From NCBI GenBank assembly GCA_016201275.1, contig JACQDB010000044.1, positions 1 through 62,727 on the forward strand: a stretch of DNA of 62,727 nt, read 5' to 3'. Every line of letters begins with the position of its first letter. Position 1 is the first letter of the stretch. The notes beneath the pieces were generated by a model, which did no database searches, was not told the origin of the DNA, and saw nothing but the letters and a program-made list of their open reading frames with translations. This document shows positions 7,324-45,414 of the stretch, piece by piece. Both the position numbers and the translations under genes were made by a program. The DNA is from Acidobacteriota bacterium (GTDB taxonomy: Bacteria > Acidobacteriota > Blastocatellia > UBA7656).

Positions 7324-7863
7324 AATCGCACTTTTCTTATGCCGATGGCGAAGGCGACAGGTTGTGCCACTAGCGCTATCAGCAGGCAGGAACGCAAAAG
7401 GAAAAGGGAAAGGGGATGGGTGAGATAATCGGTGAGAGGATGGCGGAGAAGGTGTCGCGTAGCAGAAGATTGTTGCAGCGTGACGGATTAAGGATGGTGG
7501 ATGAAATAACCTGCAAAACGTCAGTGATTTTCCAATGCCCTGTAGGGGCGACCCTGTGGTGGTCGCTCCTACAGGGTTGCACTTTGTTTAATCCACAATC
7601 CTAATTGGCTATCACCCGCTTGGCGGGCTAACCATACGAATGGGTGTTCGTCCACGGGCTGACACCCGTGGCTTTATGCTTGCGCCCACTTCGCGGGCTA
7701 GCCAACTGCACCATAACTTTGGAACACTACTAATCAGAGATTCTTGAGGAAATCAGTAGCGCTCAATCCCATAGAAAAGGGGGCAAGCCAAACTGCCAGC
7801 CCGTCACCTCGAACAAATTTTGAAGAGGACAACAGCGACCGACTGGCAGCCTTCGGAGCCTCT
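7324..7863. other. Gene-free stretch holding a repeat element
   Basis: About 540 bp lies between two leftward genes. Its right half is the palindromic repeat described at 7488-7730. The left part (7324-7487) is purine-rich with no coding signal that I can support. Short open frames here are incidental. Confidence 0.6.
7488..7730. repeat. MITE-like palindromic repeat, copy 1
   Basis: The left module (about 7488-7603) is an inverted repeat: AAGGATGGTGGATGAAATAA on one side and TTAATCCACAATCCTAA on the other. An inner palindrome reads CCTGTAGGGGCGACC / GGTCGCTCCTACAGG. The right module contains CACCCGCTTGGCGGGC and CACGGGCTGACACCCGTGG hairpins and ends CTTTGGAACACTAC, close to the terminal repeat GTAGTGTCC of the copy at 45240. 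Copy 2 (42388) carries both modules with the right one inverted. No transposase is encoded, so it would be moved in trans. No target duplication is visible for this copy. Confidence 0.7.
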
Positions 7864-9776: not shown

Positions 9777-12700
9777 TTAATCGCGTTTTTTACGTTTGGC
9801 ATCCAGCAAACGACTGGCGAGCGATTTATCGTCCGTGGTGCGCGCAGTCTCTGTAACGATTTTTGCTTCGCCTTCAGCTTGACCGGCAACGGGCTTTGCC
9901 GCAGGCGCGGCGCTACTTGTCGCGGTCTCGTTGGCTCGCCTTTTGGCTTCGTTGGTTCTGGCGTTGTCGAGCTGGTCTGTGGCGATGAAGGCCGCCGGTT
10001 GATGTGATTTTTGCAGCGCCGGAGCAAGAGGTTTGCTGACCACTTCATCGGTTGCATCTTCAGCGCTGAGGCGCACACGCCGACGCGACCGCTTCAACTG
10101 CGCGTGTGCCGCTGCGGTTGCCGCAAGCGTTTCTTGCTTGGGTGCGCGGCGCAATGTTGCTGTCAGCCAGTCCCGCGCCGCTTCGCTTTGCTCACGCGAC
10201 AAGTGAACGCGCCGCAAGCCTACATCAACCGGTAACAACAAAACCGCCAGCAACAAGAGCGTTGCAAAAATTTCTCGCGGCGTGGTTTTTTCGGTGCGAT
10301 GGTCAAACAACTTCGCCTTGCCGGTTGAGGCTGACGGATTCGCCGCGTCACTGGATGAATTCGGCGGCGTGCTGTTGCTTGAATTGTCGTTCGCCGCGTT
10401 ACCGTTCAAAACGCTGCCGCCAGTTACCTCGCTGATTTGCGCCAGCAAATTTGCATCCGCACTGGTGATGCTGAATTCCGGCGAGTAGGAATTCACCGAA
10501 CCCGTAATCGGCGCAGTCAAGCCGCCAGCTTCGTTAACGCTGACCAAGTAAGCGCCGCGTGTGACGGCCTCGAAATCGCCTTCGTAGCGTCCCGAAGCGC
10601 TCTGCTCAAGCGTCACCTCCGAGGTGGAAAAATCGGGCGCGACGATGTGCGCCTGCAAACGCAAATTGTTTTTGAACGAGCCGTCCGCACGCAACGCTTC
10701 CACGACGACGTGGCCTTTACCGGCGTTGATTTCAACACGCGGCTGCAATTCATTCGAGCCTTCACGGCGCAACGTATCGCGCAACACCTGTGTCCAGAAT
10801 TGTCCAAAGCCAGACCAGTTCATCCAGTTCACCGCCCAACGCGCTTTGGCGTCCGAAGTAAAAGCCGCTACACGACCAAGCCCGTATTGCCAGACCGCAT
10901 ACACCGGGTCGTCTTTATCGGAAAGCAGCGCGGTGATAGCCGGTGAGTTGGCGGCATCGCGTTCCGCCGTGCCTACATAACCATTGAGTTGTGGCGCGCC
11001 CGTCCAATCAATGCCGTTGGTCGCTTGCGTGGCTCGAACCAGTCGCGGTTGAAAGGGTTCTTCGATGATGGTGGAACGCGACGCTAGGAAAGCTTCGCGG
11101 GTGAAAATCTGCGGCAAGGTTTCGGCTCTGTCGGTGGCATAAAACCGTCCGCCGCCAAGGTCAGCAATCATCTTCATGCCGCGCACGTCGGCGTCACGAC
11201 CTACGGCTATGGTGGAAAGCGTCATACCGGCAGCGCTCACCGCTTTGGCTATGCCAGCGAAGTCGCCGGGTTCGCTCTGGCCGTCCGACAACACGATGAT
11301 GTGTTTGATCTGCGCGTCGCTGGCTTGCAACCATTGGTAAGCCTGTCGTATGCCGGGATACATAGCGGTTCCGCCGACCGCTTGAATGGATAAAATCTCT
11401 TTGATGATTTTTTTCTTGTCTTCCACTTTGGTGATTTCGGCAACCGTTTGCGCTTCGCTGTCGAACGCCAGGACGCCAACCGAATCGCGCTCCGACAAAA
11501 AATCCACCGCCGTCGAAGCGGCTTCCTGCGCCAACTCCATCTTGCTGCGTCCGCCACTTTGAATCTCGGCCATCGAACCCGATTTATCAATCACCAAGAC
11601 CAGCGCCAGCGCTGGAAAATGCTTCTTCTGGCGAATGTCTAAAGAAACCGGCAGCATCTCTGCGATAGGCGTTTTGTAATAACCGCCGGGGCCGAAACTC
11701 TGTTCGCCGCCAATCATCAGAAAGCCGCCGCCCAAATCCCGCGCATAAGCTTGCGCCATTTTCATCTGCTCTCTGGTCAATTGCGTCGCCGGTAGATTAT
11801 CGAAAACCACCAAGTCGTAATCTTGAAACCCGGCCAGCGAAGTGGGCGCAACGTGGCTGGTATCAACGACGAAATTGCCTTCGGCAAAGACGCGCAGCAA
11901 AGCCGCAGAAGGTTGCGAATCGCCCGTCACATAAAGCAATTTCGGTTTGCCTTCGACCAACGTGAAAGCTTCGCGGGAATTGTTCTGCACGAAGCTGTCG
12001 GCTTGCAATGCTTCGATTTCGGCGCGGTAGGTGTAAAAGCCTTTGCGGTCGTTGCGCTCCGGCAGTATGAAAACATTTTCGCCGTTTGCCGCCAGTTGCA
12101 CAGGGCGTTCGGCAATCAAGGTGTCGTTGCGAAAAATTCTCAACTTTGCGTCGGTGTCAACGGTGCTGTCAATCGTCGCTTTCAACTCGAAGGCTTCACC
12201 TTCGGCGAGTTGTTGCGGCGCGAGCAGTTCGCGCACGGCAATTTCACCTTGTTGATGCGAGCCGTCGTTGACCGTGTTCAAAGCGCGTGTGTGAACTTCT
12301 ATGGCTTCGGCTTTTAATAGTCGCGCTTCGGCGATGGCGTTTTCCAGATTTTCATTGCCGTCGGAGATCAACACCAAACGCCCAACGGCGTCTTCCGGCA
12401 CGAGGGCGGAAGCGAGTTTCAAAGCGCCAGCGATGTCTGTGTAATCACGCGACGGCGCGGAACTGATTTCCTTGAGTTGCCAATCGCCGAGAATTTCTTT
12501 ACGGGTTGGCGCGACTTCAACCACGGCGTCACGTCCGAAAGCAATGACGCCGACATAATCGCGTGGCGCGGCGCGCTGCATTTCGGCGTTGATAAACGCG
12601 AGAATGTCTTTTTGTTGGTCTGGCGCGACGCTGGCGGAAACGTCAACCAGAAAGAGTAACGCCAGGTCGTGAGCCGTAGCGCGTAGCCGCAAACCGGCAA

Positions 12701-12911: not shown

Positions 12912-14120
12912 TTATTCTTCCTTTGTGCGAACAAGGCCGTATTTCTTCAACACGCTGTCCAGCCACTGCTGATACTCGTCAAAGGTGGCTTTCATCTCGT
13001 CCACATCTTTCGGTAAAAACGCGGTTGATTCTTTGGGGTTCTTCGCGGCTTTTTCAAGCGCCTCGGCGCGTTTATTCATTAAGTCAACAACGCGATTGCG
13101 AATGGCATCGCTGCGCTCATCCAGCTTGGCGATGGCGGATACATCGGCGGCCTTTCTTCTTAAATTTCTGGCAACCTCCGCAAGGTTGGTTGGCTCGCTG
13201 ATCCTTCTTGAATTTTCCAAAGCGATCTCTGCATTATTTATCGCTTTTGTTAAATGAATGACGGTTTGCGCTTGACGCTCTGCGTCCGGTCCCTGTTGCG
13301 CCTGTTGTTGCACTGTGCCGTAATTGATCCCTACCATCACAAAACTGGCGATGATGGTGACCACGCTGAGGACGGCCAGCGCATTCCACACAGTTGCCGA
13401 GCGCACGGTTTCCGGCGACTCGCCTTTTATCCAGAAGCCCAACGCGCCGCCAGCGATGAAGCCAGCGGCGTGTGCGACGTTGTTGGCTTTGATTATAAAA
13501 CCGTAAATGATCGTCATCGCTATCCAGGTGAGCATGGTTCGCATCAGTCCCTTGCCAAAGGTGCCGCCTTGCCGATAGCCGTACACCGCCAGCAAACCGA
13601 TTAACCCGGAGATCGCTCCCGAAGCGCCAGCCCCGTTGATGTTAAAAAAATAGGAAGCGATGGAACTGACGATTCCCGTCAGCACATAGATGAAGATGAA
13701 TTTCTGTTCGCCAAAAATATTCTCCGCCAGCGGCCCGATTTGATAAAGCGCATAGCTGTTGAACAACAGGTGAATCAAGCCTATGTGCAGGAAGTTCGCC
13801 GTTACGAAGCGCCACCATTGGCCTTCATTCACCAGCACCACAACAAACGAACCGAAGTCAACAAGCACCGCCCCGGAGGCGCTGGCGACAAACGCTTCCA
13901 TGCCGCGCCCGTTTTTCAATCCGACCGCGCCCATCAAAATGAAAATCAGAACATTGATGCCGAGAATCAGCATAGCGAAGAAATTGCCCGAAGTTCCGCT
14001 CCCACTGACGCGCTGTTCCGGCACTGCTTCATTGCCGCACATCGGGCAGACGCTTGCCGCCGGGTCAACTAAGGCCCGACAGTTTTGACACATCACCAGT
14101 CTTTTCTTTTGACCAAACAT
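12912..14120 (-). CDS. Rhomboid intramembrane serine protease with zinc ribbon
   Basis: The protein has 402 residues. An N-terminal zinc ribbon has CxxC pairs at about 11-14 and 25-28 (CQNCRAL, CPMCGNE). Six or seven membrane helices follow. The catalytic Ser lies in GAGASGAISGLIG near 167 and the His in NNVAHAAGFIAGG near 214, the rhomboid dyad. The last 115 residues are soluble and helical with many charged residues (IRNRVVDLMNKRAEALEKAAK), probably a coiled coil. Rhomboids cleave membrane helices of other proteins. Here the gene starts on the last base of the upstream VWA gene's stop codon (TAATG) and lies between two VWA membrane proteins. Those proteins, or their partners, may be substrates; this is inference. 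An AGGAG lies 11-12 bases upstream. Confidence 0.9.
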   Translation of the reverse strand: MFGQKKRLVMCQNCRALVDPAASVCPMCGNEAVPEQRVSGSGTSGNFFAMLILGINVLIFILMGAVGLKNGRGMEAFVASASGAVLVDFGSFVVVLVNEGQWWRFVTANFLHIGLIHLLFNSYALYQIGPLAENIFGEQKFIFIYVLTGIVSSIASYFFNINGAGASGAISGLIGLLAVYGYRQGGTFGKGLMRTMLTWIAMTIIYGFIIKANNVAHAAGFIAGGALGFWIKGESPETVRSATVWNALAVLSVVTIIASFVMVGINYGTVQQQAQQGPDAERQAQTVIHLTKAINNAEIALENSRRISEPTNLAEVARNLRRKAADVSAIAKLDERSDAIRNRVVDLMNKRAEALEKAAKNPKESTAFLPKDVDEMKATFDEYQQWLDSVLKKYGLVRTKEE

Positions 14121-15994
14121 TACGCCGCTATTCTCCTATGATAAACCCACCACTCGAAAGCCAGAATCACCAGCGCCGCAAGCAACAGCCATTGCCAAGC
14201 TTCGCGCTCGGAACTGAAGGTCTCGGTCTGGCCGCCCACTTCGCCAAGCCGTGTTTGAATCGCCTCACGCGGTGCGGTATTGGATTCCGCTTCGTTCAAC
14301 AAACTGACGGCGAAGGGGGGCGCGTCCTTCACCTCGTAAAGCCCTGCGTGCAAGGTGTCGGCAAACAGCGCCGCGCCATCGCGCAAATTTATTTCCGTCG
14401 CGTCGCCGTTGGGCGCGGTGATCTTTGTCGTAGCCGCAGCAGCGCGAACCGTGACGGGCTGGCCTGCATGAATCGCCCGTTCATCGGCAACCGCGTCGCG
14501 TCCGGCAAGCCACGCCAGCGAATTCGCCAATAAAATCGGGAACTCGATCTTCAAAGGCAAATCGCTTTTCGATAAATCAAAACCGACCATCACCACTTTG
14601 CGTTTGTTGTCACCGGCAAAGATAAGGCCGTCCGCACCGCTTTGCGCTACGGGTTTCAACCAACTGCTGACCGTGTGTTTCATGGCCGCTTCGATATGCA
14701 AATCGGCGTAGCTTAAAAAGCTGTTCACCGGATGAGCGCGATCAACGAAAGTAATCGAAGGATTTTCCAGCGCGCCGTTTGCTGTCCACCATCCCGCAAC
14801 GTCGAGAGGATTGATGGCAAACAGCGGTTTGTTACTCGCTAAGATTTCGGCGCTGATGCCGCCATCGGTGATGAGGCAATCGAAATCATCAAGCGCAGCC
14901 GATACGGCGGTCAACTTGCGCGCTTCTATCGCCGCGTTGACCGCCAGCGCTTGAAGCAAAAATGGATTGTCGCTTTGCACGGCGACGCGAACTTTGCGCG
15001 CATCCGGCAAGCTGGCGTAGGCAATATTATCGGCGGACAAATCATCCTCGGCGAGGAGTTTCAATTCGGCTAGGCCGCCGGTCTGCGGCAACGCATCGAA
15101 GACCACGGCAGTGCGATCATGAGCGGCAAGATTCACGCTGCGCGCATCGGCTATCTTGCCGTCAAGTTTTAATTCGAGATTTACCTGGCGCTCCTGGTCG
15201 CTGAAATTGGCGATGGCGGCAAACAACTCTTCGCGGCTGTTGGCTTGCGAAGCGCGCGAGTTCAAAGCGACGATGCCGACATTTTCAGCGCGCCGCCCGA
15301 CGCGCACCAGCCGCACGGCGATGGAACGCGCCGTGGTTTGCGACGTTTTCATAGCCGCTGCGCGTGAAGCGGTCGGTGGCGCGACAGGATTAGCGAACGA
15401 GGCCGCGCCGCCGCCATCGGAAATAACGACGATGCTGGCGTCGCGTTCAGCCTTCGCCAGTTGTTCGGCCAACAACAGAGCGTCGGCGAGCGTGCCAGCC
15501 GCGTCGGTCTCCTGAATCTGATTGACCGCCGAGGCAAGTGTAGCGCGGTCGGAGGTGAGGGCGCTGCGAACCGTGACGCGGGACGAACTTTCGATAATAG
15601 CGGCGCGGTCGCTGCCGCCTAGACCGGCAATCATCTCGCGGGCGAGTTGTTTGGCGTGTGCAAGGCGGGTGTTGCCGTCTTCGTCAGTGGCGCTCATGCT
15701 GGCGGTTGAATCAATGATGATGATGGAACTGCCGGTCGCCAGGGCTTGGGTTTTGACCAGTGGACGAGCGAGCGCGAAAATCAGAACGGCTAGAATCAGG
15801 AGTTGCAGTAAGAGTAAAAGACTACGGCGCAATTTGCGGAACGGCGCGTTGGCTTCGATTTCTTCGAGGGCGCGTTGCCATAAAAAAACGCTCGGCACGA
15901 CGCGACGTTGGCGTTTGAGTTTGAGCAAGTAAAAAAAAATGATGATCGCGCCGAGCAGCAGCCACCACAGCGCGTGTGCCGAGAGAAATCGCAT
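14120..15994 (-). CDS. BatA-type VWA membrane protein
   Basis: The protein has 624 residues. Its N-terminal BatA domain has a first helix at about 8-24 (ALWWLLLGAIIIFFYLLKL), a basic stretch, and a second helix near 60-78. A VWA domain follows with the MIDAS variant DSTASMSATDEDG near 95, where a Thr-Ala pair replaces the first Ser pattern. A middle part resembles the amidotransferase-like region of the larger neighbour, and a last helix (WLLLAALVILAFEWWVYHRR) lies at the end. It heads the leftward operon VWA - rhomboid - VWA. Its start codon and 43 bp of leader lie inside the 96-bp repeat also present at 24310-24405. The accessory cassette thus ends just upstream of this gene while leaving it intact. 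Confidence 0.85.
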   Translation of the reverse strand: MRFLSAHALWWLLLGAIIIFFYLLKLKRQRRVVPSVFLWQRALEEIEANAPFRKLRRSLLLLLQLLILAVLIFALARPLVKTQALATGSSIIIIDSTASMSATDEDGNTRLAHAKQLAREMIAGLGGSDRAAIIESSSRVTVRSALTSDRATLASAVNQIQETDAAGTLADALLLAEQLAKAERDASIVVISDGGGAASFANPVAPPTASRAAAMKTSQTTARSIAVRLVRVGRRAENVGIVALNSRASQANSREELFAAIANFSDQERQVNLELKLDGKIADARSVNLAAHDRTAVVFDALPQTGGLAELKLLAEDDLSADNIAYASLPDARKVRVAVQSDNPFLLQALAVNAAIEARKLTAVSAALDDFDCLITDGGISAEILASNKPLFAINPLDVAGWWTANGALENPSITFVDRAHPVNSFLSYADLHIEAAMKHTVSSWLKPVAQSGADGLIFAGDNKRKVVMVGFDLSKSDLPLKIEFPILLANSLAWLAGRDAVADERAIHAGQPVTVRAAAATTKITAPNGDATEINLRDGAALFADTLHAGLYEVKDAPPFAVSLLNEAESNTAPREAIQTRLGEVGGQTETFSSEREAWQWLLLAALVILAFEWWVYHRRIAA

Positions 15995-16037
15995 AAAACC
16001 TTTACGGGCAACCGTCGCCCGCTGTTCCTGTTTTCAT
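15942..16037. repeat. 96-bp direct repeat, copy A (5' end of the BatA-type gene)
   Basis: The segment is identical, base for base, to 24310-24405 and in the same orientation. It covers the first 17-18 codons of the BatA-type gene plus 43 bp of leader. To its left the match continues weakly through an A-run. To its right about 45 bp still align with 24406-24450 but with many differences. The two copies bracket 8.27 kb holding the three-gene nuclease/methylase operon. Confidence 0.95.
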
Positions 16038-16125
16038 GTTGACCTAAAGAGAGAGAGTATCGCATAGCTTAACGAAGCGCAGCCAATGTCTTTGGATGGA
16101 GGCTCGCGGAATCTATCGCTTTTAA

Positions 16126-17241
16126 TCATTCCTCTTTTGCGAACCTGCGACGTGACGCGAAATGTTGCTGCTCATGCTGCAATTCGACGCGCAATTCTTC
16201 GGCGGTCGGCAAATAGAGTTGATAACGCGAAGCAAAGATTTGCGCCTGTTCTTCGGCTAGTGTGTAGCGCACCACCGCATCATTTTTTTCCGCACATAGT
16301 AGAATACCGATAGCCGGATTTTCCCATTCTTCGCGCCTCTCCCGCGTATAAAAATTGGTGTACATCTGTATCTGTCCAAGGTCGCCGTGCGTGAGTCTGC
16401 CAATCTTTAAGTCAACCAACACGAAACAGCGCAACAAGCGATTATAGAAGACCAGATCAATGTAAAAGTGATCGCCATCAAGCGTGATGCGTTGTTGACG
16501 GGCGATAAAAGAGAAGCCTTTGCCCAGTTCAAGCAAGAACTGTTGCAGGTGGTCGAGCAGAGCCGTTTCCAGTTCTGATTCGCTCAGGGAATGCGCTTCG
16601 GGCAAGCCTAAAAATTCCAGCACGAAAGGGTCTTTGATAAAGTCGAGCGGAGTCTGTTTTTCTGCCTGTTCTCGCGACTCTTTAAGCAGGGCGCGCTTTT
16701 GTCGAGAGAGCGCCACACGTTCATAAAATAGTGAATTGAGTTGTCGTTCGAGCTGCCGGGTTGACCAGTTCGCTTCGGCAGCTTCGGTTGCATAAAAGTC
16801 TCTGGCATCCGCATTCTCAACCTTGAGCAGGAGGCGATAATGTGTCCACGACAATTCTCGACGCAGTGCGTCGAGAAAGTTTGGAAAGGTGAGATGAAAC
16901 TTCCGCATATGCCAGAGATTCGATCTATCAAATCCCTTGCCGAACTCTTCGGTGAGACGCGCCGACAGCGATTCGATCAACTGCTCTCCGTATTCGGCGC
17001 GATTTTTGCCTCGCTGTTCATACTCAACAATAGCTTGCCCAATCAACCAATAGGCGCGCACCATCTCGCTGTTGACCTGTCGAGCAATACGAGTGCGCGC
17101 TTCATTCAAAATATCGCGCACTTCAACGTAGAGATTGCCAACCTCAAGTGATTCGAGCCTTGCAGCGCGACGCGATGTCGTCAACGATTTTGACCTCGTT
17201 CGATTTGCGACTTTGGTTTTCTTCTTCAATGCCTTTGTCAT
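16126..17241 (-). CDS. DUF1016 / YhcG-type PD-(D/E)XK nuclease
   Basis: The protein has 371 residues, near the usual length for the family. The basic N-terminus and residues about 35-180 form the DUF1016 N-domain (YWLIGQAIVEYEQ, SNLWHMRKFHLTFP, ELSWTHYRLLLKV). Residues about 200-350 hold the PD-(D/E)XK core: HFYIDLVFYNRLL gives the acidic residue and VLVDLKIG the D-x-K pair. The family is common in defence islands and beside restriction-modification genes, but its chemistry is poorly defined. The start overlaps the methyltransferase stop by four bases (ATGA), so it is the third gene of a translationally coupled operon. It ends 131 bp before the BatA-type gene. Confidence 0.85.
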   Translation of the reverse strand: MTKALKKKTKVANRTRSKSLTTSRRAARLESLEVGNLYVEVRDILNEARTRIARQVNSEMVRAYWLIGQAIVEYEQRGKNRAEYGEQLIESLSARLTEEFGKGFDRSNLWHMRKFHLTFPNFLDALRRELSWTHYRLLLKVENADARDFYATEAAEANWSTRQLERQLNSLFYERVALSRQKRALLKESREQAEKQTPLDFIKDPFVLEFLGLPEAHSLSESELETALLDHLQQFLLELGKGFSFIARQQRITLDGDHFYIDLVFYNRLLRCFVLVDLKIGRLTHGDLGQIQMYTNFYTRERREEWENPAIGILLCAEKNDAVVRYTLAEEQAQIFASRYQLYLPTAEELRVELQHEQQHFASRRRFAKEE

Positions 17242-20200
17242 TTTACCAGCCCTCTTTCAACATCGCGATAAGCGTTCTGGGCGGCGACCTTCACAGGTTC
17301 AAGCACTAGCGGGAAGGTGGTCAGGATGTAGGCGAATTCCGCTTCGCTCAAACCGTAGAGGTGAGCGACGAGTCCGTCGAGTTCAGCGCGCAGCCTGGCG
17401 CGTTCGGTTTCGTTGGTTGCGCCATCTTGGTGCGAGGCGAGACCGACTTGGCGGGCGAGGTCATCGTATTCGGGAGTCGTGCAGATGAGCCGCGCCGCCC
17501 GCTCAACGATAGGTGCGAACACCGCGTCTTTTGAGGTCAGTCGCGGCAGGGGAAGTTGATAAAAAGTGAACATTGAAATTGTTGTTGTTGTTCTTTGTCT
17601 AACTTGGTAATCGAAACTGAAGCCATTAAGCAAGGCACAGCAAAAAAGAAGGTCGTGATAAGACGTGCTCCCGCGAGAGCTACTTAACATTAGCTTGTGA
17701 TTTGCGAAAACATTTCCAGGCAGTAATGTTGAAATCATAGCTCTTTCATTAGTGTTTGAGGCAATTTCTCTAAATGCCATTCTGTATTTCTGATAATCAA
17801 GTTTTTGCTCTGTATCTTCTCCGCGAGTTCCAAGCAAAGCTCTTCGCGCTTCTTTTTCATCAAGCCAGTATTTCGGCTCGCCCCATTTGTGCGTGAATTG
17901 ATGAATCATCTTGCCTTCGTAGAGCGGCAAGCGCCCTTTGCCCGGAGCGCTCTTGAACAAATGGCTATCGTTGGTCATGTGAAACTCGTTGCACAAAACC
18001 AGATTCCACTTGTCTTCAAGCTTATCGCCGAGCAGCGGAAAGCGCAGCATCTTTTCGGCGATTTGAATTTCCAACTCGTTCTTGAACTCCATCACTGAAA
18101 GCGAATCAGGCGACAAGCGACGAATCAACTCAACAGACATTCGTAACGCGCCATCTCGTGGGAAGCGCACTAACTCTGCTACATCAAGCCGCATAAAGGC
18201 GGAGGGGAATTCCTTTGTGCTTTTGCCTTTCTCGAAGGTCAGCACAATAAACTTGAAACTGCGATGAACGCCTTCAAAAATCTCTTTGCGATTCTCGAAA
18301 CAGAATAACCCTGTGACTTCGGTTTGATTGAAAAGCATTTCGCGCAATTGCTTTGTTCCCAAATCGGTGTAGATGCCGCTTGGAATAACGATGCCGCCTT
18401 GTCCGCCTTCGCGCAGCAGGTTGAAGCATTGCTCGGTGAAAAGTTTATAAAGATTGATGTCGGTTCCCGCCTTCTTGCCGTTGACGATGGCGATTTGATT
18501 CTTGTATTGCTGCGCGTTGCGGTAATACAAACTGACGTGCGGAAAGCGGCTGAGGAATTCCAGCCACGCCGCTCGGACATCGGCTTGCTTGAGCAACTTC
18601 GCCTGTTCCTTCTCAAAATCTTTAATGGTCATCTTGTTCTTGGTTACCAAGTCGGAATACTCGGCGAAGAACTCTTTCGCTTGCGGCTTGAAGATTTCCC
18701 AAGGCGGGTTGGTGATAATCGCGTCAAAGCCGCCGCGCTCAACAATAATCCTGTCGAACTCGTAGCCCCAATGAAACGGACGCAATCTCTCCATGTCAGA
18801 AATATCAAGCGGACGTTTCTCCGCCTTGCCTTCTTTGTTCTTCTTGTCGTCCCACGTCGCCTGTTCGTACTTGATGCCGAGATTGCGAAACTCATCAAGC
18901 AACAGAGTGTTGATCTTTTTGTACGACTCTTCGCGGACTTTTTCGATATGCTCGCGCAGTTGCAGCAGGCGCGTGTGCTGGTCAAGCCCTTGATGCTCTC
19001 CGGGTTTGAAAGCGTGGTCTTTGTAAAGCGCGATGGAACGGTTCTTCTCTTCTAAAATTTTGTTGTAATCGGAAGCGTCCCACTGCCCAAAGAAACTGCC
19101 TTGAAAGCCTTCGCCTATCTTATTGAATTTTTCCGCGTTGACTTTCAGGATACCCATCAACGAATTGCCGGTCAGGATGTTGAAATCAATGTTAGGCAAC
19201 GGCTCTAACTGTTCAACACTCTGCGCCGATGCAACGAGCGACAAAAATAACCGGAGCCGGGCAATCTCCGTCGCCTCTTCCATCACGTCCACGCCAAATA
19301 GATTGTCTGTGATGATGCGCTTCTTGATGAAGTAGTGCAGGCTTTTATGCTGGCGTTCGGTGTCGTGCAACCACTTCGTCAAATTGGCGTCCGAAAGAAA
19401 TTTAATCCTGCCGGTGATTGCCGAATAGACGTAAATCAAACGCTTCATCGCGGCAACCAGAAACGCGCCTGAACCGCAAGCCGGGTCAAGTAAGCTCAAG
19501 TTAGGCAGCACGTCGAACAACAGTTCGCGGCACAACGGCGCGTTGAGGTTCATCAATAACTCTGCCAATGAATCGAACTGTCGGGCAGCCAACACACCCT
19601 TGATTTCCGGCGCGTTGATGCGCTTCAAAATCAACTGGTCAATGGTGCGTTCACAAAGGTACTCGGTGATTTCGATGCGCGTGTAGTACGCGCCAAAGGC
19701 TTTCTGGTTGATGTACTTTTCAAAGATGTAGCCCAACACATCTGGATTGATTTCATCATCCTTACCCTCCGGGCTGTCGTTCAAGTTCCACGAATAGCTC
19801 CCGAAGAGCGCCAAGAGATTTTCAAAGGCAAGATCGGGAATGCGTATATCGTATTCCTTGTTTAACTCTATGCGGTGTTCAAGGAACAAGCCGCCGTTGA
19901 GGTATTTGATATTGCCAAGCAGGGCGCGAACCTCCGGTGTGCGTTGCGTGTCGGGTTTGGCAAAGCCTTCAAAGAAGAGCATCCGCAAAAACTCTTGGTA
20001 GTAGAGGTCGCGCCCACGCCCCTTACTTTCAGCAAGCTTGTTTTGCAAGTAGCGTATGTCGCCCTCGTTGAGAAAATGCTTGGATTGCAGAAAGTAGATG
20101 AACATCAAACGATTGAGCAGAATCGAAGCGTACCAACGGCGGTCGCGCTCGTCATCAATCCCTTGAATGAGTTCGGTAAACGCCACATACTCTTCAGAAT

Positions 20201-20729
20201 AATCTTTGTAGAATTTCTTGGTGACGCGCTCAACATCAAGCGCATCTTTAAGGCGACGGGCGACAACGATGACGGGGACATTGCCATCTTGGTCAAATTC
20301 GCTGAGGTCAACAACCATTGCGCTTAATTTGCTGAGGAAGAGGTCGCCGGGTTGCCCTTTGATGTAGAGGTGATCGCGGACGAACGTTTTATTGCCCTCG
20401 CGTTTGACCCAATACCAGAGGCTTTGCGAAGGGTTATCTTTCTGGTTCAGAAAGATAAACAGATTTTCGTGATGCAGTTGCGATATTTGTTTGTGGATAG
20501 CGGCGCGAGCCTTGGCGTTGGGGATTACGCCATCCGACGAAATGATTTCAAAAATTACCACGCCTGAGAGTTGAGCGATCTGTCGGCGCTCGAATTCAAT
20601 ACTGTCAAAAGACCCTTTGATTGATTTGCGCTCTGTGGGTTGCGCCCATCCGAGTTCTTCTATGAAAAGCGCTTTGAAATCGAATTTTTGCAGCAGGTCG
20701 CGGGTTCGCAAGATGTCCAACTTTGCCAT
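17238..20729 (-). CDS. Eco57I-type N6-adenine DNA methyltransferase (putative type IIG-like)
   Basis: The protein has 1163 residues from the ATG at 20729, which has a strong AGGAGGAG four bases upstream and shares one base with the preceding stop (TGATG). SAM-binding motif I is DPACGSGAFLVA near 416 and the catalytic motif IV is ITNPPWE near 673, as in gamma-class N6-adenine methylases. The C-terminal part (about 880-1100, TFYQLPLPRLTS) resembles a target-recognition domain. The N-terminal 350 residues are helical with a beta-rich start (GVVIFEIISSDG); I cannot see a clear PD-(D/E)XK site, so cleavage may depend on the partner proteins. No separate specificity subunit is present. It is co-transcribed with the PLD-helicase and DUF1016 genes. 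Confidence 0.88.
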   Translation of the reverse strand: MAKLDILRTRDLLQKFDFKALFIEELGWAQPTERKSIKGSFDSIEFERRQIAQLSGVVIFEIISSDGVIPNAKARAAIHKQISQLHHENLFIFLNQKDNPSQSLWYWVKREGNKTFVRDHLYIKGQPGDLFLSKLSAMVVDLSEFDQDGNVPVIVVARRLKDALDVERVTKKFYKDYSEEYVAFTELIQGIDDERDRRWYASILLNRLMFIYFLQSKHFLNEGDIRYLQNKLAESKGRGRDLYYQEFLRMLFFEGFAKPDTQRTPEVRALLGNIKYLNGGLFLEHRIELNKEYDIRIPDLAFENLLALFGSYSWNLNDSPEGKDDEINPDVLGYIFEKYINQKAFGAYYTRIEITEYLCERTIDQLILKRINAPEIKGVLAARQFDSLAELLMNLNAPLCRELLFDVLPNLSLLDPACGSGAFLVAAMKRLIYVYSAITGRIKFLSDANLTKWLHDTERQHKSLHYFIKKRIITDNLFGVDVMEEATEIARLRLFLSLVASAQSVEQLEPLPNIDFNILTGNSLMGILKVNAEKFNKIGEGFQGSFFGQWDASDYNKILEEKNRSIALYKDHAFKPGEHQGLDQHTRLLQLREHIEKVREESYKKINTLLLDEFRNLGIKYEQATWDDKKNKEGKAEKRPLDISDMERLRPFHWGYEFDRIIVERGGFDAIITNPPWEIFKPQAKEFFAEYSDLVTKNKMTIKDFEKEQAKLLKQADVRAAWLEFLSRFPHVSLYYRNAQQYKNQIAIVNGKKAGTDINLYKLFTEQCFNLLREGGQGGIVIPSGIYTDLGTKQLREMLFNQTEVTGLFCFENRKEIFEGVHRSFKFIVLTFEKGKSTKEFPSAFMRLDVAELVRFPRDGALRMSVELIRRLSPDSLSVMEFKNELEIQIAEKMLRFPLLGDKLEDKWNLVLCNEFHMTNDSHLFKSAPGKGRLPLYEGKMIHQFTHKWGEPKYWLDEKEARRALLGTRGEDTEQKLDYQKYRMAFREIASNTNERAMISTLLPGNVFANHKLMLSSSRGSTSYHDLLFCCALLNGFSFDYQVRQRTTTTISMFTFYQLPLPRLTSKDAVFAPIVERAARLICTTPEYDDLARQVGLASHQDGATNETERARLRAELDGLVAHLYGLSEAEFAYILTTFPLVLEPVKVAAQNAYRDVERGLVK

Positions 20730-23700
20730 CAATCTCCTCCTCTTTCGCCGGAGAGTCCTAAAGAGCAAATAATTTGCGGCTCATCCGTTGCTTCTTCTTC
20801 GCTGCTTCGACAGAGGCGGTCTTGGTCGCGCAAGGCAAGCACAAGTTCGGCGAGTTTCACATCTGTGATGCCGCTTCGCAATTGCCGATTGAGAATATCT
20901 ATCGCCGCTTGCTGCAACGGGTGGCGATAGAGTTCATCGAGAGCTTTGAACAAGGCAGGCGATTCAAAGAGTGTGCCTTTGACATCTTCGGCGTAGCGTT
21001 TGAGGCGTTCATATATTCTAAAGCGCGCCCCTGTGGGTCTGCCCAATTGTCCGCCGGTTGATTTGTCTTCTTCGACGATGACTTCAACGCCGCGCTGAAC
21101 CAGATGATGATGCTTGTCGTTGTGAGGCAGGGCAGGGGTGTCTGGCAAACATTCGGCGGCTCTGAGAATGGTGAATTGAGATTCGCTGACGCTGTTGCCT
21201 GCTTTATCAACCCAGGCAAGCGCGTCGTTGCCTTCGGCTGTGCGTAAATAAACCAACACGCCTTCAGGCTCGCGTGGGCTGGGTTGATGAGCCCTGGTTG
21301 AATAAACGACGTGCGGCATATTAGGAATGATGCGTTGCAGATTGGCATTCGCCGTGATGGCATTGTTCCAGATTTGATAAGCGTAAGAAGCCAAGTCAAC
21401 TTCTGTGTCCGCGTCGCCATCAAGTATGCCGGACTTTTCGTTGTAGAGATCAAGCACCACTCTGTCGTTGCGGTCATCTTCAAAGAAGGCTTCGTCCGTG
21501 CCTATGACTTCGGCGTTTTCAGAGAGGCGTTGGCGGACGCGCTCACGCAAGCGAATGATGCGCTCTACGCCTTGGGCTGGCAGAAAAGAGTAGCAGAAGA
21601 TTTTTTCCGCCATCTGCCCTATGCGGTCAACGCGACCGGCGCGTTGAATGAGTCGGATGATTGCCCAAGGCAAATCATAATTGACGACTATGGAACAGTC
21701 TTGCAGGTTTTGACCTTCGCTTAAAACATCTGTGGCAATGAGGGCGCGCAATTCGTCTTCGGGCTTTATCTGTTTGTTATTGCTGAGGGGACTGAATCGC
21801 CAGGCAAGAGCCGTGGGGTCTGCGGATGCGCCGGTTACGCCGGAGATTTTCAACAAGCCTCGCGCTTGAACCTGCCTAGCCAAATAGTTCACGGTGTCGG
21901 CGAATTGCGTAAAGATGAGAACTTTCTCTTTCGCGTGTCGCTTGGTCAGCAGTTTCAAGAGCGCCTCGAGCTTTGCATCTTTGTTGGCGTCCCACTCGCC
22001 GGACATCTGCAATACTTTCAGCAGAGCTTCGGCATCTTTGCCAAGGTCTTTTGCCAGCGCCTTGATAAAGAGGTTTGGGCGAAGCCATTTGAAGCGATTT
22101 TTGTACTCCATTTCGTACTGTGCATAGACCTCGGCGGCGCGCTGCTTGAAATCATTTTCAGCGCCTAAAGCGAGCCTTTCTACGGATGAATTTTCTTCGC
22201 TGTTGTCATTGTCGGCAAAGATCTCTGCCATAGCGTTAGCCGTATCTGCATCGGCGTCGTAAACCCGTGTGTCGAGCAAGGCTGAATCCTGTGTGCCTAT
22301 GGGCAGCGGCTTTTCATGCTCTATGGCGTGAAGGTATATGTAGTTTCGCAGGATGTGACGTTCGATAGAAAGCAGAAAGGCTTGTCCGCTGCTTTCAAGG
22401 CGTTTGAAAAGATTGGTTCGACAGAACCCCATCAAGCGTTTACCGGCGCGCGAAAGGTCTTGCAGAAGCTTTGCTTCTTGCGCTGTAGGTTGTTGTGACA
22501 AAGACGCGGCGACGTAATTGCCCAAGCCGTAGCGCGGCAGATTGAGCGCGTTGATGATGTCAACAACCTCTGCGGAATAGAGCCGCGCATATTGGTCATC
22601 AGGGTCGCTCTCGTCTATTTTGATCTTCACGGTTTTGGGTAGGCGATCAGGGAAATAGGATAACGAACCGTCTTCAAACTTCAGATATTTGCGCCTCGTA
22701 GTGGTATCGGTTTCGGCGTAATTATCTTGAATGAAACTGCGCGTTCTTCTGACCATGTAGAGTCGCATCAACTCGCGCCAGTCATCGGCATATTCGCTCT
22801 TTTCAAAAGCGGCGAGCGAACGCGGGGCGCATTGGTGGCGACGTATGAATTCGGTTTCGCCAAGTTGTTTGAGCAATTGTTCCGGGCGAATTCCTAAATC
22901 TTTGTCTTCGGAGATGCAGAGCCGCAGTTGGTTGGAAAGGTCTGTGTAGGTTTTGTTGTATGGCGTAGCGGACAACAGTATGCACTTGCTTTCGTTTTTT
23001 TGAATGTAGTCTTGAATGGCTCGATAACGACTGCCTTCGCGGTTGCGTAAGTTGTGGCTCTCATCAATCAGTAGTAAGCGATAACGCCGCAGTTCGGGCA
23101 ATTCGCGGCTGACTCTGGTGATCGAAAGAATGCGGGCGCGCAGGCGATATTGGTCGCGATAATCTTCCCACATCTTAACCAGATTTTTCGGGCAGATGAT
23201 TAAAGTCTCAAGGTCGAAATCGTCCTCGAAGATGCGCGCCAGAGCCGTTGCCATCAAGGTCTTGCCTAGACCGACAACATCGCCTATCAAGACGATGCCG
23301 CGTTTGTTGAGATGATGCGCGGCGATTTGCACAGCCGCTTCCTGGAACTTGAATAACTTATTTTTGAAATCTTTTGGGATGCTGAACTCCGCGAGTCCGG
23401 CACGCGCTTCTTGCGAAAGGTGATAAGCCATCTTTACATAAATGTGATAAGGCGGAATCAAATCTTGACGCGCCCAACTCTCTTCAATGACTTGAAGCAA
23501 GGCTTCAGAAATGTCCACGCACCAACGATCATGCCATCTATCTTCAAACCACTTGGACAATTTCAGACAGGCATCGTGATCTAAAACATCTACGTTCAAT
23601 TCACCTTGATGAGAGAGTCCCGCAAAGGTGAGATTGCTGCTGCCTACATAGCCAGTTATAGGATTTACCGGATCGGCGCGGTGCAGCAGATAGAGTTTTG

Positions 23701-24118
23701 CGTGCAGCGAATGTCTGAGAAACAGTTTGACGATGACTTTCTTCGCTTTGATTTGCACAGCTAAACGCCGCAAGCCAGCTTCGTCTTCATTGGTAGGCGC
23801 GCCCAGGGCTAACTGTTTGCGGAAATCTTCCGCCAACTCTTTTTTAAGGCGCAAGACTTTTTGGTTATCTATCTCGTTATCACGATTGGTGAGGCTCAAG
23901 GCAGCGCGCAACTCCTCACTTGCTGATCGTTGCATACCGATTAAAAGGCGACAGCAATTGCCTTCACTGCCGGAAAAATGTTCTATGGAGGAGTCCATCA
24001 TTTTCCAGCCGCGCAGATTGAAATAGCCGACGCTGAAATCTGCGCGATGCGAGAGTTGCAAAGTTTCGCGGAGAGTAGGTAACAGTCGTTGTTCTATATT
24101 GTCGAATATACGAGGCAT
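20729..24118 (-). CDS. PLD-nuclease / SNF2-type helicase fusion
   Basis: The protein has 1129 residues. Residues about 15-205 form a phospholipase-D-like nuclease domain with the H-x-K of SLHAKLYLL near 139 and GSSNLTFAGL following. The canonical Asp of HKD is not at its usual place. A superfamily 2 SNF2-like helicase follows: Walker A DVVGLGKT near 280, DESHN near 353, SATPYN, then C-terminal motifs VLSEGQNLQ and IQRAGRVDRIGQ near 828. The last 250 residues are unassigned. Proteins of this design track or open DNA and cut it, and they occur with Eco57I-like methylases in anti-phage loci. It is the first gene of the cassette and has a weak ribosome site. The tail ends one base into the methylase start. 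Confidence 0.88.
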   Translation of the reverse strand: MPRIFDNIEQRLLPTLRETLQLSHRADFSVGYFNLRGWKMMDSSIEHFSGSEGNCCRLLIGMQRSASEELRAALSLTNRDNEIDNQKVLRLKKELAEDFRKQLALGAPTNEDEAGLRRLAVQIKAKKVIVKLFLRHSLHAKLYLLHRADPVNPITGYVGSSNLTFAGLSHQGELNVDVLDHDACLKLSKWFEDRWHDRWCVDISEALLQVIEESWARQDLIPPYHIYVKMAYHLSQEARAGLAEFSIPKDFKNKLFKFQEAAVQIAAHHLNKRGIVLIGDVVGLGKTLMATALARIFEDDFDLETLIICPKNLVKMWEDYRDQYRLRARILSITRVSRELPELRRYRLLLIDESHNLRNREGSRYRAIQDYIQKNESKCILLSATPYNKTYTDLSNQLRLCISEDKDLGIRPEQLLKQLGETEFIRRHQCAPRSLAAFEKSEYADDWRELMRLYMVRRTRSFIQDNYAETDTTTRRKYLKFEDGSLSYFPDRLPKTVKIKIDESDPDDQYARLYSAEVVDIINALNLPRYGLGNYVAASLSQQPTAQEAKLLQDLSRAGKRLMGFCRTNLFKRLESSGQAFLLSIERHILRNYIYLHAIEHEKPLPIGTQDSALLDTRVYDADADTANAMAEIFADNDNSEENSSVERLALGAENDFKQRAAEVYAQYEMEYKNRFKWLRPNLFIKALAKDLGKDAEALLKVLQMSGEWDANKDAKLEALLKLLTKRHAKEKVLIFTQFADTVNYLARQVQARGLLKISGVTGASADPTALAWRFSPLSNNKQIKPEDELRALIATDVLSEGQNLQDCSIVVNYDLPWAIIRLIQRAGRVDRIGQMAEKIFCYSFLPAQGVERIIRLRERVRQRLSENAEVIGTDEAFFEDDRNDRVVLDLYNEKSGILDGDADTEVDLASYAYQIWNNAITANANLQRIIPNMPHVVYSTRAHQPSPREPEGVLVYLRTAEGNDALAWVDKAGNSVSESQFTILRAAECLPDTPALPHNDKHHHLVQRGVEVIVEEDKSTGGQLGRPTGARFRIYERLKRYAEDVKGTLFESPALFKALDELYRHPLQQAAIDILNRQLRSGITDVKLAELVLALRDQDRLCRSSEEEATDEPQIICSLGLSGERGGD

Positions 24119-24309
24119 TAAAATTACTCGTTTATGCTTTTTGTGGAAAAGATAATCAGGTTAAAAAATCCCTTTTATTGAACGACACAAGGAACCAGCC
24201 ATATTGAACAGGTAGGCAGAATACCATCACATCACATCACCATCAAGCATCATGAATTTCGGGTAATGATTTAGATTCTAATTGCCTTTCATGAAAAGTA
24301 AAAAAAATA
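24119..24309. promoter_or_regulatory. Leader and probable promoter region of the cassette
   Basis: About 190 bp of AT-rich DNA lies upstream of the leftward PLD-helicase gene. Read leftward it holds a GATG/GTGATG run (24222-24252) and several A/T stretches such as AATAAAAGGG, but I cannot fix -35 and -10 boxes with confidence. No gene is seen. The composition differs from the core genes around it. Confidence 0.4.
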
Positions 24310-24405
24310 ATGATCGCGCCGAGCAGCAGCCACCACAGCGCGTGTGCCGAGAGAAATCGCATAAAACCTTTACGGGCAACCGTCGCCCGCTGTTCCTGTT
24401 TTCAT
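24310..24405. repeat. 96-bp direct repeat, copy B, with a truncated BatA-type gene start
   Basis: The segment is identical to 15942-16037. On the minus strand the ATG at 24362 begins the same residues as the BatA-type protein (MRFLSAHALWW), then after about 20 codons the match stops at an A-run and unrelated sequence follows. This copy is therefore a dead 5' fragment of the gene. It marks the far border of the cassette, and recombination between the two copies would delete 8.37 kb and leave one intact gene start. Confidence 0.93.
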
Positions 24406-24732
24406 TTCCACCGTGTCCAAAGAGTATCGCACAGCGCAACGAATCACAGCCAACCTTCCATACAGTAGCCTTGGCGAATTGGCGCTTGGCGAAACGCCTT
24501 CGTTCGACAGCGCCACAGGAATTCCCAGCCGCTGCGGCGGATGGCGCGGATGGCGACGGATAATCGGTCCCTATCCGTGGCATCCGCAGCATCGGTTGGG
24601 AATTCAAGCAACACCTTGGTCGGATCGAATTGTCGTCGCCTGATCGCGCAAGCCAACATTTATTACTCGTTGCAGAAACTCTGGCGCAAGCTTGGCGCTA
24701 TCGGCTACCATGCCTGCGTTGTCTGATTGCGT
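24406..24732. other. Gap upstream of the PAP2 gene
   Basis: The first 45 bp are a diverged relative of the sequence beyond copy A of the 96-bp repeat (16038-16085), consistent with an ancestral leader of the BatA-type gene. The remaining 280 bp are GC-rich with a gatggcgcggatggcg run. No gene or clear promoter is recognised. Confidence 0.5.
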
Positions 24733-25491
24733 ATGGTCGAAAATTTAACAAACCATTCCGAGATCAAACCAGAGCCTGTCAATTCGCTATCGGCAGCAGC
24801 AGCAGCGGCGGCAGCGCGGCAACTTCGCAAAGGCTTGATAGCTTTTGCGCTGACCTTGTGCCTTTATGTTGCGCTTGCGGTGTTCGCGCACTTCTTTGCG
24901 TATTTCAACTGGGACAAAAAACTTGACGCGGCGATTCAAAACATATCGCTGCCGGGCTTTGGTTCGCTGATGATTTTTTTATCGTTCCTCGGCGACCGCT
25001 GGATTCCGTTTGCGATTGTCATCGTCGTCAGCCTCGTGTTGATACTGGCGCGCAAGCGCCTGGAAGGAGCGATCTGTTTGGGCGGCATCGCTTTGGGCGC
25101 GGCCTTGAATGAACTCACCAAAGTGTTGATCGGCAGACCGCGACCCGATAAAAGTTTGGTGCATATTTTGACCGAAGTGAATCACAACAGCTTTCCTTCG
25201 GGGCATACATTTTTCTTCGTGGAATTTTTCGGCTTCCTGTTTTTTGTCATCTACGTTCTGCCTCTCCCGCGTCTGTTTCGCCGAGTCTTGTTGGCGCTCT
25301 TGCTCACCTTGATTGCGCTGATCGGCGTATCGCGAGTTTATCTGGGAGCGCATTGGCCGAGCGATGTCCTCGGCGGTTATCTGGCCGGAACCTTGTGGCT
25401 GACCTTAATGATTAAAGTCTATCTGCGTTTACAAGACCGCCAGACGAAAGCGCCAAAGCCGACCACGCCATCCTCCACAGATATTTCCTGA
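24733..25491 (+). CDS. PAP2-family membrane phosphatase
   Basis: The protein has 252 residues from the ATG at 24733. An Ala-rich N-terminus is followed by about six membrane helices. The three PAP2 motifs are present: KVLIGRPRPDKS (motif 1), SFPSGHTFF (motif 2) and SRVYLGAHWPSDVLGGY (motif 3, with the His and Asp of the active site). The family removes phosphate from lipid phosphates or undecaprenyl pyrophosphate at the outer face of the inner membrane. The substrate here is not fixed by the sequence. The ribosome site is weak. It is followed 75 bp later by brkB-like on the same strand. Confidence 0.85.
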   Translation: MVENLTNHSEIKPEPVNSLSAAAAAAAARQLRKGLIAFALTLCLYVALAVFAHFFAYFNWDKKLDAAIQNISLPGFGSLMIFLSFLGDRWIPFAIVIVVSLVLILARKRLEGAICLGGIALGAALNELTKVLIGRPRPDKSLVHILTEVNHNSFPSGHTFFFVEFFGFLFFVIYVLPLPRLFRRVLLALLLTLIALIGVSRVYLGAHWPSDVLGGYLAGTLWLTLMIKVYLRLQDRQTKAPKPTTPSSTDIS

Positions 25492-42303: not shown

Positions 42304-42998
42304 GGTGCTCCTTGCTTCGAGAATTCGTTTTGAGATGAAGCGAATTTATTGTTTCAAAGAACGTCCGCCTCAGCAAGGCTATGTTGAGTCGTGTCCTAAT
42401 CGTATGGTGTTGTTAGATAGTCCGCGAAGTGGGCGCAAGCATAAAGCCACGAGGTCTAGCCCACGCACGAGCGCCCATTCAGTATGGTTAGCCCACCAAG
42501 CGGGTGATAGATAATTGGCTATCAGCCGCTTGGCGGGCTAGGAGGCCATCACAACTCGCTTAGGATTGTGGATGAAATAACCTGCAAGACTTGAGTGATT
42601 TTCCCATGCCTTGTACGGGCGACCCTGCGGTGGTCGCCCGTACAAGGTTGCACTTGATTTCATCCACCATCCTTACCCAGCGCTGGCGCAATGGGCTTTA
42701 GGCGGTCACCCGCTTCGCAAATTCTCACGACTCGCCACAACTTTAGGACACTACTCTATACGGCATGATGGAAAGTGAACGATAGACCAGCACGCGCCGA
42801 CCTCGCAGCTAATATCCGTATCGCCGCGTCGTCGCGTTTTCTCATCATCGCGGTGCGAATATTGCCGCCGCACCGCTAGCCATCCGCTTTACAATTGCCG
42901 CATCTTTATGACATTCTGCGACCACGAGAAATCGTGCGTGTACCGCGAAATCACGGGTAAAGTTTCACCGACAGAAAAATTCTACAAGCGAGGTCTTT
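42304..42998. other. 695-bp gap with a repeat element
   Basis: This divergent gap between the SPOR gene (leftward) and the acyl-CoA ligase (rightward) has its middle taken by copy 2 of the MITE-like repeat (42388-42756). The last 240 bp hold a hairpin GCGGTGCG...CGCACCGC (42850-42876) and the ligase leader. No gene is recognised. Confidence 0.6.
42388..42756. repeat. MITE-like palindromic repeat, copy 2
   Basis: The ends are inverted: GTCGTGTCCTAAT at 42388 and CTTTAGGACACTAC ending at 42754. The right module (42561-42675) is an inverted repeat with GGATTGTGGATGAAAT / ATTTCATCCACCATCC arms and an inner palindrome TTGTACGGGCGACC / GGTCGCCCGTACAA, related to the left module of copy 1. The left half is the reverse complement of copy 1's right half (GCGAAGTGGGCGCAAGCATAAAGCC). 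No target duplication is visible, so it may be a rearranged or old copy. Confidence 0.75.
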
Positions 42999-45239: not shown

Positions 45240-45414
45240 GGTAGTGTCCTAAAGTTGTGGTGGTCGGTAAGGATGGTGGATGAAATAAGACGCAGTTTTT
45301 GAGGTTCAGAGGTACGCCTTTATTATGCTTGCGCCCACGGGCTAACACCCGTGGCTTTATGCTTGCGCCCACTTCGTGAGCGCTCCAACCGCACCATACA
45401 ATTAGGACACTACT
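45240..45414. mobile_element. MITE-like element, copy 3, with 8-bp target duplication
   Basis: This 175-bp element has inverted ends GTAGTGTCCTAA (45241-45252) and TTAGGACACTAC (45402-45413). It is flanked by the direct repeat TGCTAGGT (45232-45239 and 45415-45422), a clean 8-bp target duplication. Inside lie AAGGATGGTGGATGAAATAA and the CACGGGCTAACACCCGTGG hairpin shared with copies 1 and 2. An 8-bp duplication and GG-start end fit several families (IS1595 among them). It has no ORF of its own. Confidence 0.85.

Follow-up and report, generated by a model that had tools for sequence, protein, structure and literature searches.

A predicted phage-defence cassette bracketed by mosaic direct repeats of a host gene start

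The elements e14 and phage 21, in icd, restore one end of the host gene, leave a diverged stub copy of it and encode a site-specific integrase. How defence genes enter chromosomes without a transposase or integrase is an old open question. In the available portions of four articles (PMC3031569, PMC1643837, PMC3874152, PMC4978471), restriction-modification (R-M) systems are described as inserting with long and variable target duplications, on the order of 100 bp. Such an insertion was first noticed between two strains of Helicobacter pylori (Nobusato et al. 2000, as cited in all four), and the reference given there for 'insertion with long target duplication' is Nobusato, Uchiyama, Ohashi and Kobayashi 2000, Gene 259:99.

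Here we describe a stretch of bacterial DNA of 62,727 nt, referred to as the window, in which an insert is bracketed by direct repeats of host sequence. The arrangement already has a name where R-M genes are concerned and, judged from the sequence, the window is a further case of it, one in which the copies form an informative mosaic.

The insert and its host site

The 8.2-kb insert is one operon-sized cassette of three predicted phage-defence genes (Table 1). All three genes lie on the minus strand in operon order, with overlaps ranging from a few bases to some tens, and 5-40 bp, depending on the alignment, separate the stop of the YhcG/DUF1016 gene from where copy A ends. None of the three proteins reaches the NCBIfam equivalog cut-offs for DrmD, phospholipD_antiphage or PglX, the DISARM and BREX markers staying below the curated threshold (DrmD 131.5 of 610 bits, BREX-1 PglX 35.7 of 500 bits). 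The G+C content over 1-kb windows differs mildly between the insert (0.46-0.53) and its left (0.53-0.59) and right (0.50-0.56) surroundings.

Table 1. Coordinates of the host genes, repeat copies and cassette genes in the window
Feature	Position	Strand	Remarks
BatA/VWA-type host gene, intact	14120..15994	(-)	Pfam VWA_2, BatA
Copy A, whole homology	15927..16086		88% over 163 columns; diverged part 16038-16086
Copy A, identical 96-bp repeat	15942..16037		VWA 5' end and 43 bp upstream
YhcG/DUF1016 PDDEXK nuclease gene, last in cassette	16126..17241	(-)	Pfam DUF1016_N, YhcG_C; PADLOC PDC-S02
Eco57I / type IIG-like DNA methyltransferase gene	17238..20768	(-)	Pfam Eco57I; PADLOC REase_MTase_IIG, E 2.2e-112
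PLD (HKD) nuclease-SNF2 helicase gene, first in cassette	20729..24118	(-)	Pfam Helicase_C, SNF2-rel_dom, PLDc_2; PADLOC C3a139 'HKD+Snf2', E 3.6e-53
Cassette DNA, helicase gene to copy B	24119..24295	(-)	
Stub frame, 39 codons	24243..24362	(-)	21 VWA-start residues, then unrelated residues and stop
Copy B, whole homology	24296..24453		
Copy B, identical 96-bp repeat	24310..24405		
PAP2 phosphatase gene, right border of site	24727..25491	(+)	Adjoins VWA in three sister genomes

A long direct repeat of host sequence is present at both ends of the insert. Direct comparison within the window reproduced, to the base, the perfect 96-bp repeat on which the original prediction was built. Extended without gaps the repeat measures 113 nt at 96% identity, and aligned with gaps it covers 163 columns at 88.3% identity; under looser scoring the homology reaches to ~16121/24487, with 49/64 aligned positions identical to the right of the 96-bp block. 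Copy A includes the ATG (15994) and codons 1 to ~22 of the VWA gene, while copy B is an open frame that matches the VWA start over its first 21 residues and not thereafter, in keeping with the proposal that A is the true gene start and B a stub. Searching the whole assembly (6.84 Mb) with the 113-nt segment returned copies A and B as the only 2 matches, on which ground a dispersed repeat was rejected as its source.

Of 58 genomes searched, six were from the same family. VWA orthologues with 55-69% amino acid identity occur in 5/6 same-family genomes (G001-G005). In three of these five (G002, G003 and G004) the VWA gene is divergent to, and adjoins, the PAP2 gene, the two matches lying 209-308 bp apart; these three represent other genera, so that the site is seen empty with its exact insertion joint not readable base by base. 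Cassette proteins have no match in the VWA-PAP2 stretches of these three genomes, and in G002 a BrkB gene follows PAP2. For G001 and G005, a PAP2 match was not seen within the stretch fetched around VWA. The six same-family genomes contain no close helicase homologue (best E 2.1e-25). On the strength of the empty sites and of this absence of a close helicase, the cassette is an insertion at the joint of the divergent VWA and PAP2 genes, with both genes left whole. Comparison shows that the insert is now flanked on either side by some 160-190 bp of host DNA, comprising the VWA start and sequence upstream of it. Thus the expectation that the host gene would be whole and its start duplicated was borne out, and the empty site that was to be sought in sister genomes exists in 3/5 of those with the gene.

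A motif in the diverged part, common to G002 and G003 by eye, was considered as a promoter. A sigma-70 scan of 15900-16200 was empty, and the shared motif is therefore regarded as a conserved upstream motif only.

The insert had been predicted to contain no integrase. A Pfam scan of its three genes, the only genes in which transposase families were covered, found neither an integrase nor another known mobile-element enzyme. Genome-wide, none of the 14 Phage_integrase (PF00589) and none of the 2 Resolvase (PF00239) matches lies on the window contig (C88); 13 of the Phage_integrase matches are above cut-off, all on other contigs. Thus a site-specific recombinase of its own, the hallmark of an integrase-type genomic island, was not found for the cassette in these searches. 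The window contains no tRNA, and a tRNA was accordingly rejected as insertion site.

Other repeats were seen in the window. An imperfect palindrome of 87 nt (80%) lies between copy B and the PAP2 gene (24519-24605); its relatives occur at 8 further genomic places, with 12 matches altogether and both strands matched at some places, which marks it as a dispersed hairpin element. Positions 7491-7739, 42379-42673 and 45332-45414 hold members of one dispersed repeat family, for which a query of 7480-7745 gave at least 64 genome matches, some in local arrays. A tandem repeat at 52358-53051 has a shift of ~237 bp and copies that are 75-78% alike.

Related cassettes and their flanks

The helicase family is found at 67 loci in the genome contig collection, in 25 of 72,556 plasmid records (E <= 1e-50) and in 13 of 396 same-phylum genomes (E <= 1e-60, own genome counted). 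Phages were rejected as carriers of the cassette, as 50,697 phage records gave 0 helicase matches at E 1e-30. An Eco57I-like protein match lies beside the helicase at 61 of 74 loci, and among the remaining 13 are several that a contig end truncates.

A repeat test was applied to 87 loci, 46 of them with enough flank, and a cassette was counted as bracketed if it lay between direct repeats of 100 nt or more whose left copy was no farther than 1 kb from the start of the helicase. By this definition 5/46 testable loci are bracketed (the window, L060, L061, L086 and L089), or 4/46 without L061, and the repeat is absent from the other 41. The repeat measures 128 nt at 85% identity in L060 (genome G017), 508 nt at 83% in L086 (from a record titled Myxococcales) and 464 nt at 98% in L089 (from a MAG titled Bifidobacterium breve, a doubtful label). 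The repeat of L061 (genome G021; 213 nt, 97%) belongs to a dispersed family, the locus containing another 19 pairs, direct or inverted, of 100 nt or longer, and L061 was for this reason set aside as a parallel. A repeat of 173 nt at 88% also brackets the cassette of L071 (titled Desulfobacterales), which stands outside the 46-locus count with 4,295 bases after the helicase match, 4,500 being required. L093, with 78 nt at 77% and its left copy 1,393 bp away from the gene, was not counted. Bracketing repeats were absent from the 8 plasmid loci examined out of the 25 and from the 4 testable loci among five further same-phylum ones (L151-L155).

In control stretches, direct repeats of at least 100 nt at a spacing of 5-15 kb occurred in 0/20 around type I R-M systems (four of these 20 being shorter than 20 kb) and in 0/20 chosen arbitrarily; shorter repeats of 61-89 nt were seen in 2 and 3 stretches, respectively. 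Measured by count, recurrence is weak (Fisher p 0.077 for 4/46 vs 0/40, and 0.039 for 5/46). The placement next to the helicase is stronger evidence: with L071 added and the dispersed L061 left out, five cases remain, and in each the left copy stops 64-352 bp short of the helicase match. If placement in each locus were random, the product of the chances of falling within 400 bp would be 6e-8, or 9e-6 without the window; since the 400-bp limit was chosen once the data had been seen, this serves as a guide and not a test. Similar bracketing appears to recur around some related cassettes in distant bacteria.

The duplicated DNA differs at each parallel locus, with lengths from 128 to 508 nt and no common core noticed by eye. 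In L060 the repeat comes from the end of a gene of 202 codons, which matches DUF4276 weakly and below the Pfam cut-off. This gene is regarded as accessory because it is absent from the empty site for G017 found in G025 (L140), where the genes on the two sides of the whole insertion are neighbours, with matches that end at 5479 and 5517; in G044 (L139), inspected as a possible empty site, the right-hand gene alone was found. In L089 two convergent genes have had their ends duplicated, each gene being complete on its own side of the cassette and a stub across it; the frame of the second gene is 11685-12557 (-), 11389-12471 being a different frame. No empty site was shown for L089: in G428 the flanking genes lie ~8.2 kb apart without a repeat, and in L237-L239 the second flanking gene only was matched. 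The duplicated stretch holds a small open frame in L086 and resembles a terminator, by eye, in L071.

Several related loci have features of their own. The cassette of G021 lies among dispersed intergenic repeats (L061, 6076-7039 and 15474-16150). In G017 the methyltransferase frame of 1787 codons contains two near-identical repeat arrays with units of 78 and 75 bp (L060, 12434-15233). Extra genes stand behind the methyltransferase in L089 (8422-10997), namely DarT with a macro-domain partner and a DprA-like protein below the Pfam cut-off, and a DprA-like protein occupies the same place in L071 (16740-17378). In Synechocystis plasmids a VapC-type toxin lies between helicase and methyltransferase.

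Possible origin of the repeats

The two copies in the window are a mosaic. Their longest identical run spans 96 of 164 alignment columns, against a mean of 26.1 and a maximum of 80 in 5,000 shuffles (p<=0.0002). Evenly spread differences would be expected had a long target duplication just drifted, and the identical run therefore speaks against simple drift. Nor is the 96-bp block specially conserved, since 72/93 of its positions are identical to those of the sister genome G002. The same shuffle test gave p 0.0012 for L086 and, more weakly, p 0.016 for L060, and was not significant for L061. L071 shows no clear mosaic (run p 0.024, 48-column range test p 0.13), and L089, uniformly 98% identical, shows no clear one either (run p 0.91). 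With reading frames checked, 6/9 coding differences in L089 are synonymous vs 27% expected (p 0.015), an excess that fits two working alleles and not a decaying stub. L086 has 13 differences over 48 codons, distributed 2/5/6 over codon positions 1/2/3, with no clear synonymous skew.

We consider it probable, with moderate confidence, that the repeats around the cassette arose by homologous recombination between the host segment and a diverged copy of it, a reading favoured over a drifted duplication by the identical block inside diverged homology and by the mostly synonymous differences of L089. The incoming DNA, from a presumed donor, would already have borne a diverged copy of the host segment beside the cassette. 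Recombination of the RecA type, itself presumed, would have joined donor and host copies either by a single crossover, if the DNA was a circle, or, if it was linear, by one homologous end and one illegitimate join; no integrase of the cassette's own would be involved. The 96-bp block would then mark the crossover or a conversion tract, and the diverged remainder would preserve the donor and recipient versions. The empty sites, the mosaic, the parallels at L060, L071, L086 and L089, the contig free of integrase matches and the plasmid-borne helicases all count for this reading. Counting against it are the two parallels without a clear mosaic (L089 and L071), the missing skew in L086, the accessory gene duplicated in G017, the repeat-free G428 and the 41/46 cassettes that have no repeat. 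The six same-family genomes, in which a close helicase match is lacking, yielded no donor that has the cassette next to a VWA gene. It seems unlikely that the cassette spreads without its own recombinase; in that case the repeats would let RecA loop out a circle with one copy of the host segment, and homology would bring the circle back into related strains at that locus, where the repeats would form anew each time from a diverged pair.

A less probable alternative, which we nevertheless take seriously, is a true long target duplication by a non-homologous route, with distant nicks filled in or template switching, followed by drift and a later 96-bp conversion. This would leave the same end structure, has R-M precedent in print in the available parts of PMC3031569, PMC1643837 and PMC3874152, and would suit the uniformly alike copies of L089, which look like a fresh duplication. 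In the window, however, it requires that about a quarter of the outer positions have drifted and that a separate conversion has occurred recently. Moreover, the sister genera lack the cassette, yet divergence in the outer part is roughly that between genera, and the predominance of synonymous differences in L089 also argues against it.

Integration of an island that restores the gene start, with its integrase lost or acting in trans and the 96 bp as att core, seems distinctly unlikely. Beyond the core, the homology runs almost entirely on the upstream side of the VWA start and extends 15 bp the other way, a pattern shared by elements that supply a gene end anew, and the genome has integrase matches above cut-off elsewhere; against this stand the window contig without an integrase or resolvase match and the parallel repeats, different each time and sharing no core by eye. 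The original prediction had offered Campbell-type integration and a target-restoring island side by side. Because the duplication is longer than the perfect repeat and mosaic, the first option, homologous recombination, is favoured and the integrase-type island disfavoured. An assembly artefact, the refutation that had been anticipated, is highly improbable, for although the genome is a draft in 162 contigs, the two copies do not share their neighbours, about a quarter of positions outside the identical block differ between them, and similar arrangements occur in independent assemblies, including the 2-contig genome G017.

Relation to known systems

To the old question of how defence genes enter chromosomes, the window contributes an example that has clean limits and an empty site. 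Its mosaic copies provide evidence that a long target duplication can be mimicked by homologous recombination with a diverged copy, and the similar bracketing that apparently recurs at some related cassettes of distant bacteria can be tested on a larger set. In the literature searched, which excluded most subscription papers, no account was found of such bracketing for a PLD-SNF2/IIG cassette, and the available part of PMC12839542 has nothing on this cassette.

The three cargo proteins belong to the same families as PADLOC C3a139 'HKD+Snf2', REase_MTase_IIG and PDC-S02, and differ from curated DrmD, phospholipD_antiphage and PglX in falling below the equivalog cut-offs. With e14 and phage 21 in icd the locus shares a restored gene end and a diverged stub; unlike those elements, it has no integrase that we could find. 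The closest likeness is to R-M insertion with long target duplication, as far as the available portions of the articles describe it: R-M-type genes without a known mobile element or its enzymes, long and variable host repeats on the order of 100 bp, and an empty site in relatives. If near-identity of the copies is held to be part of the term, which is our own reading of it, 96 bp are identical and the rest is diverged. The window differs from the R-M precedent in its presumed bacterial group, other than Helicobacter, in its cargo of PLD-SNF2 helicase, IIG-like methyltransferase and YhcG, in copies that are diverged and mosaic, and in the similar bracketing that some related cassettes seem to have in distant bacteria.
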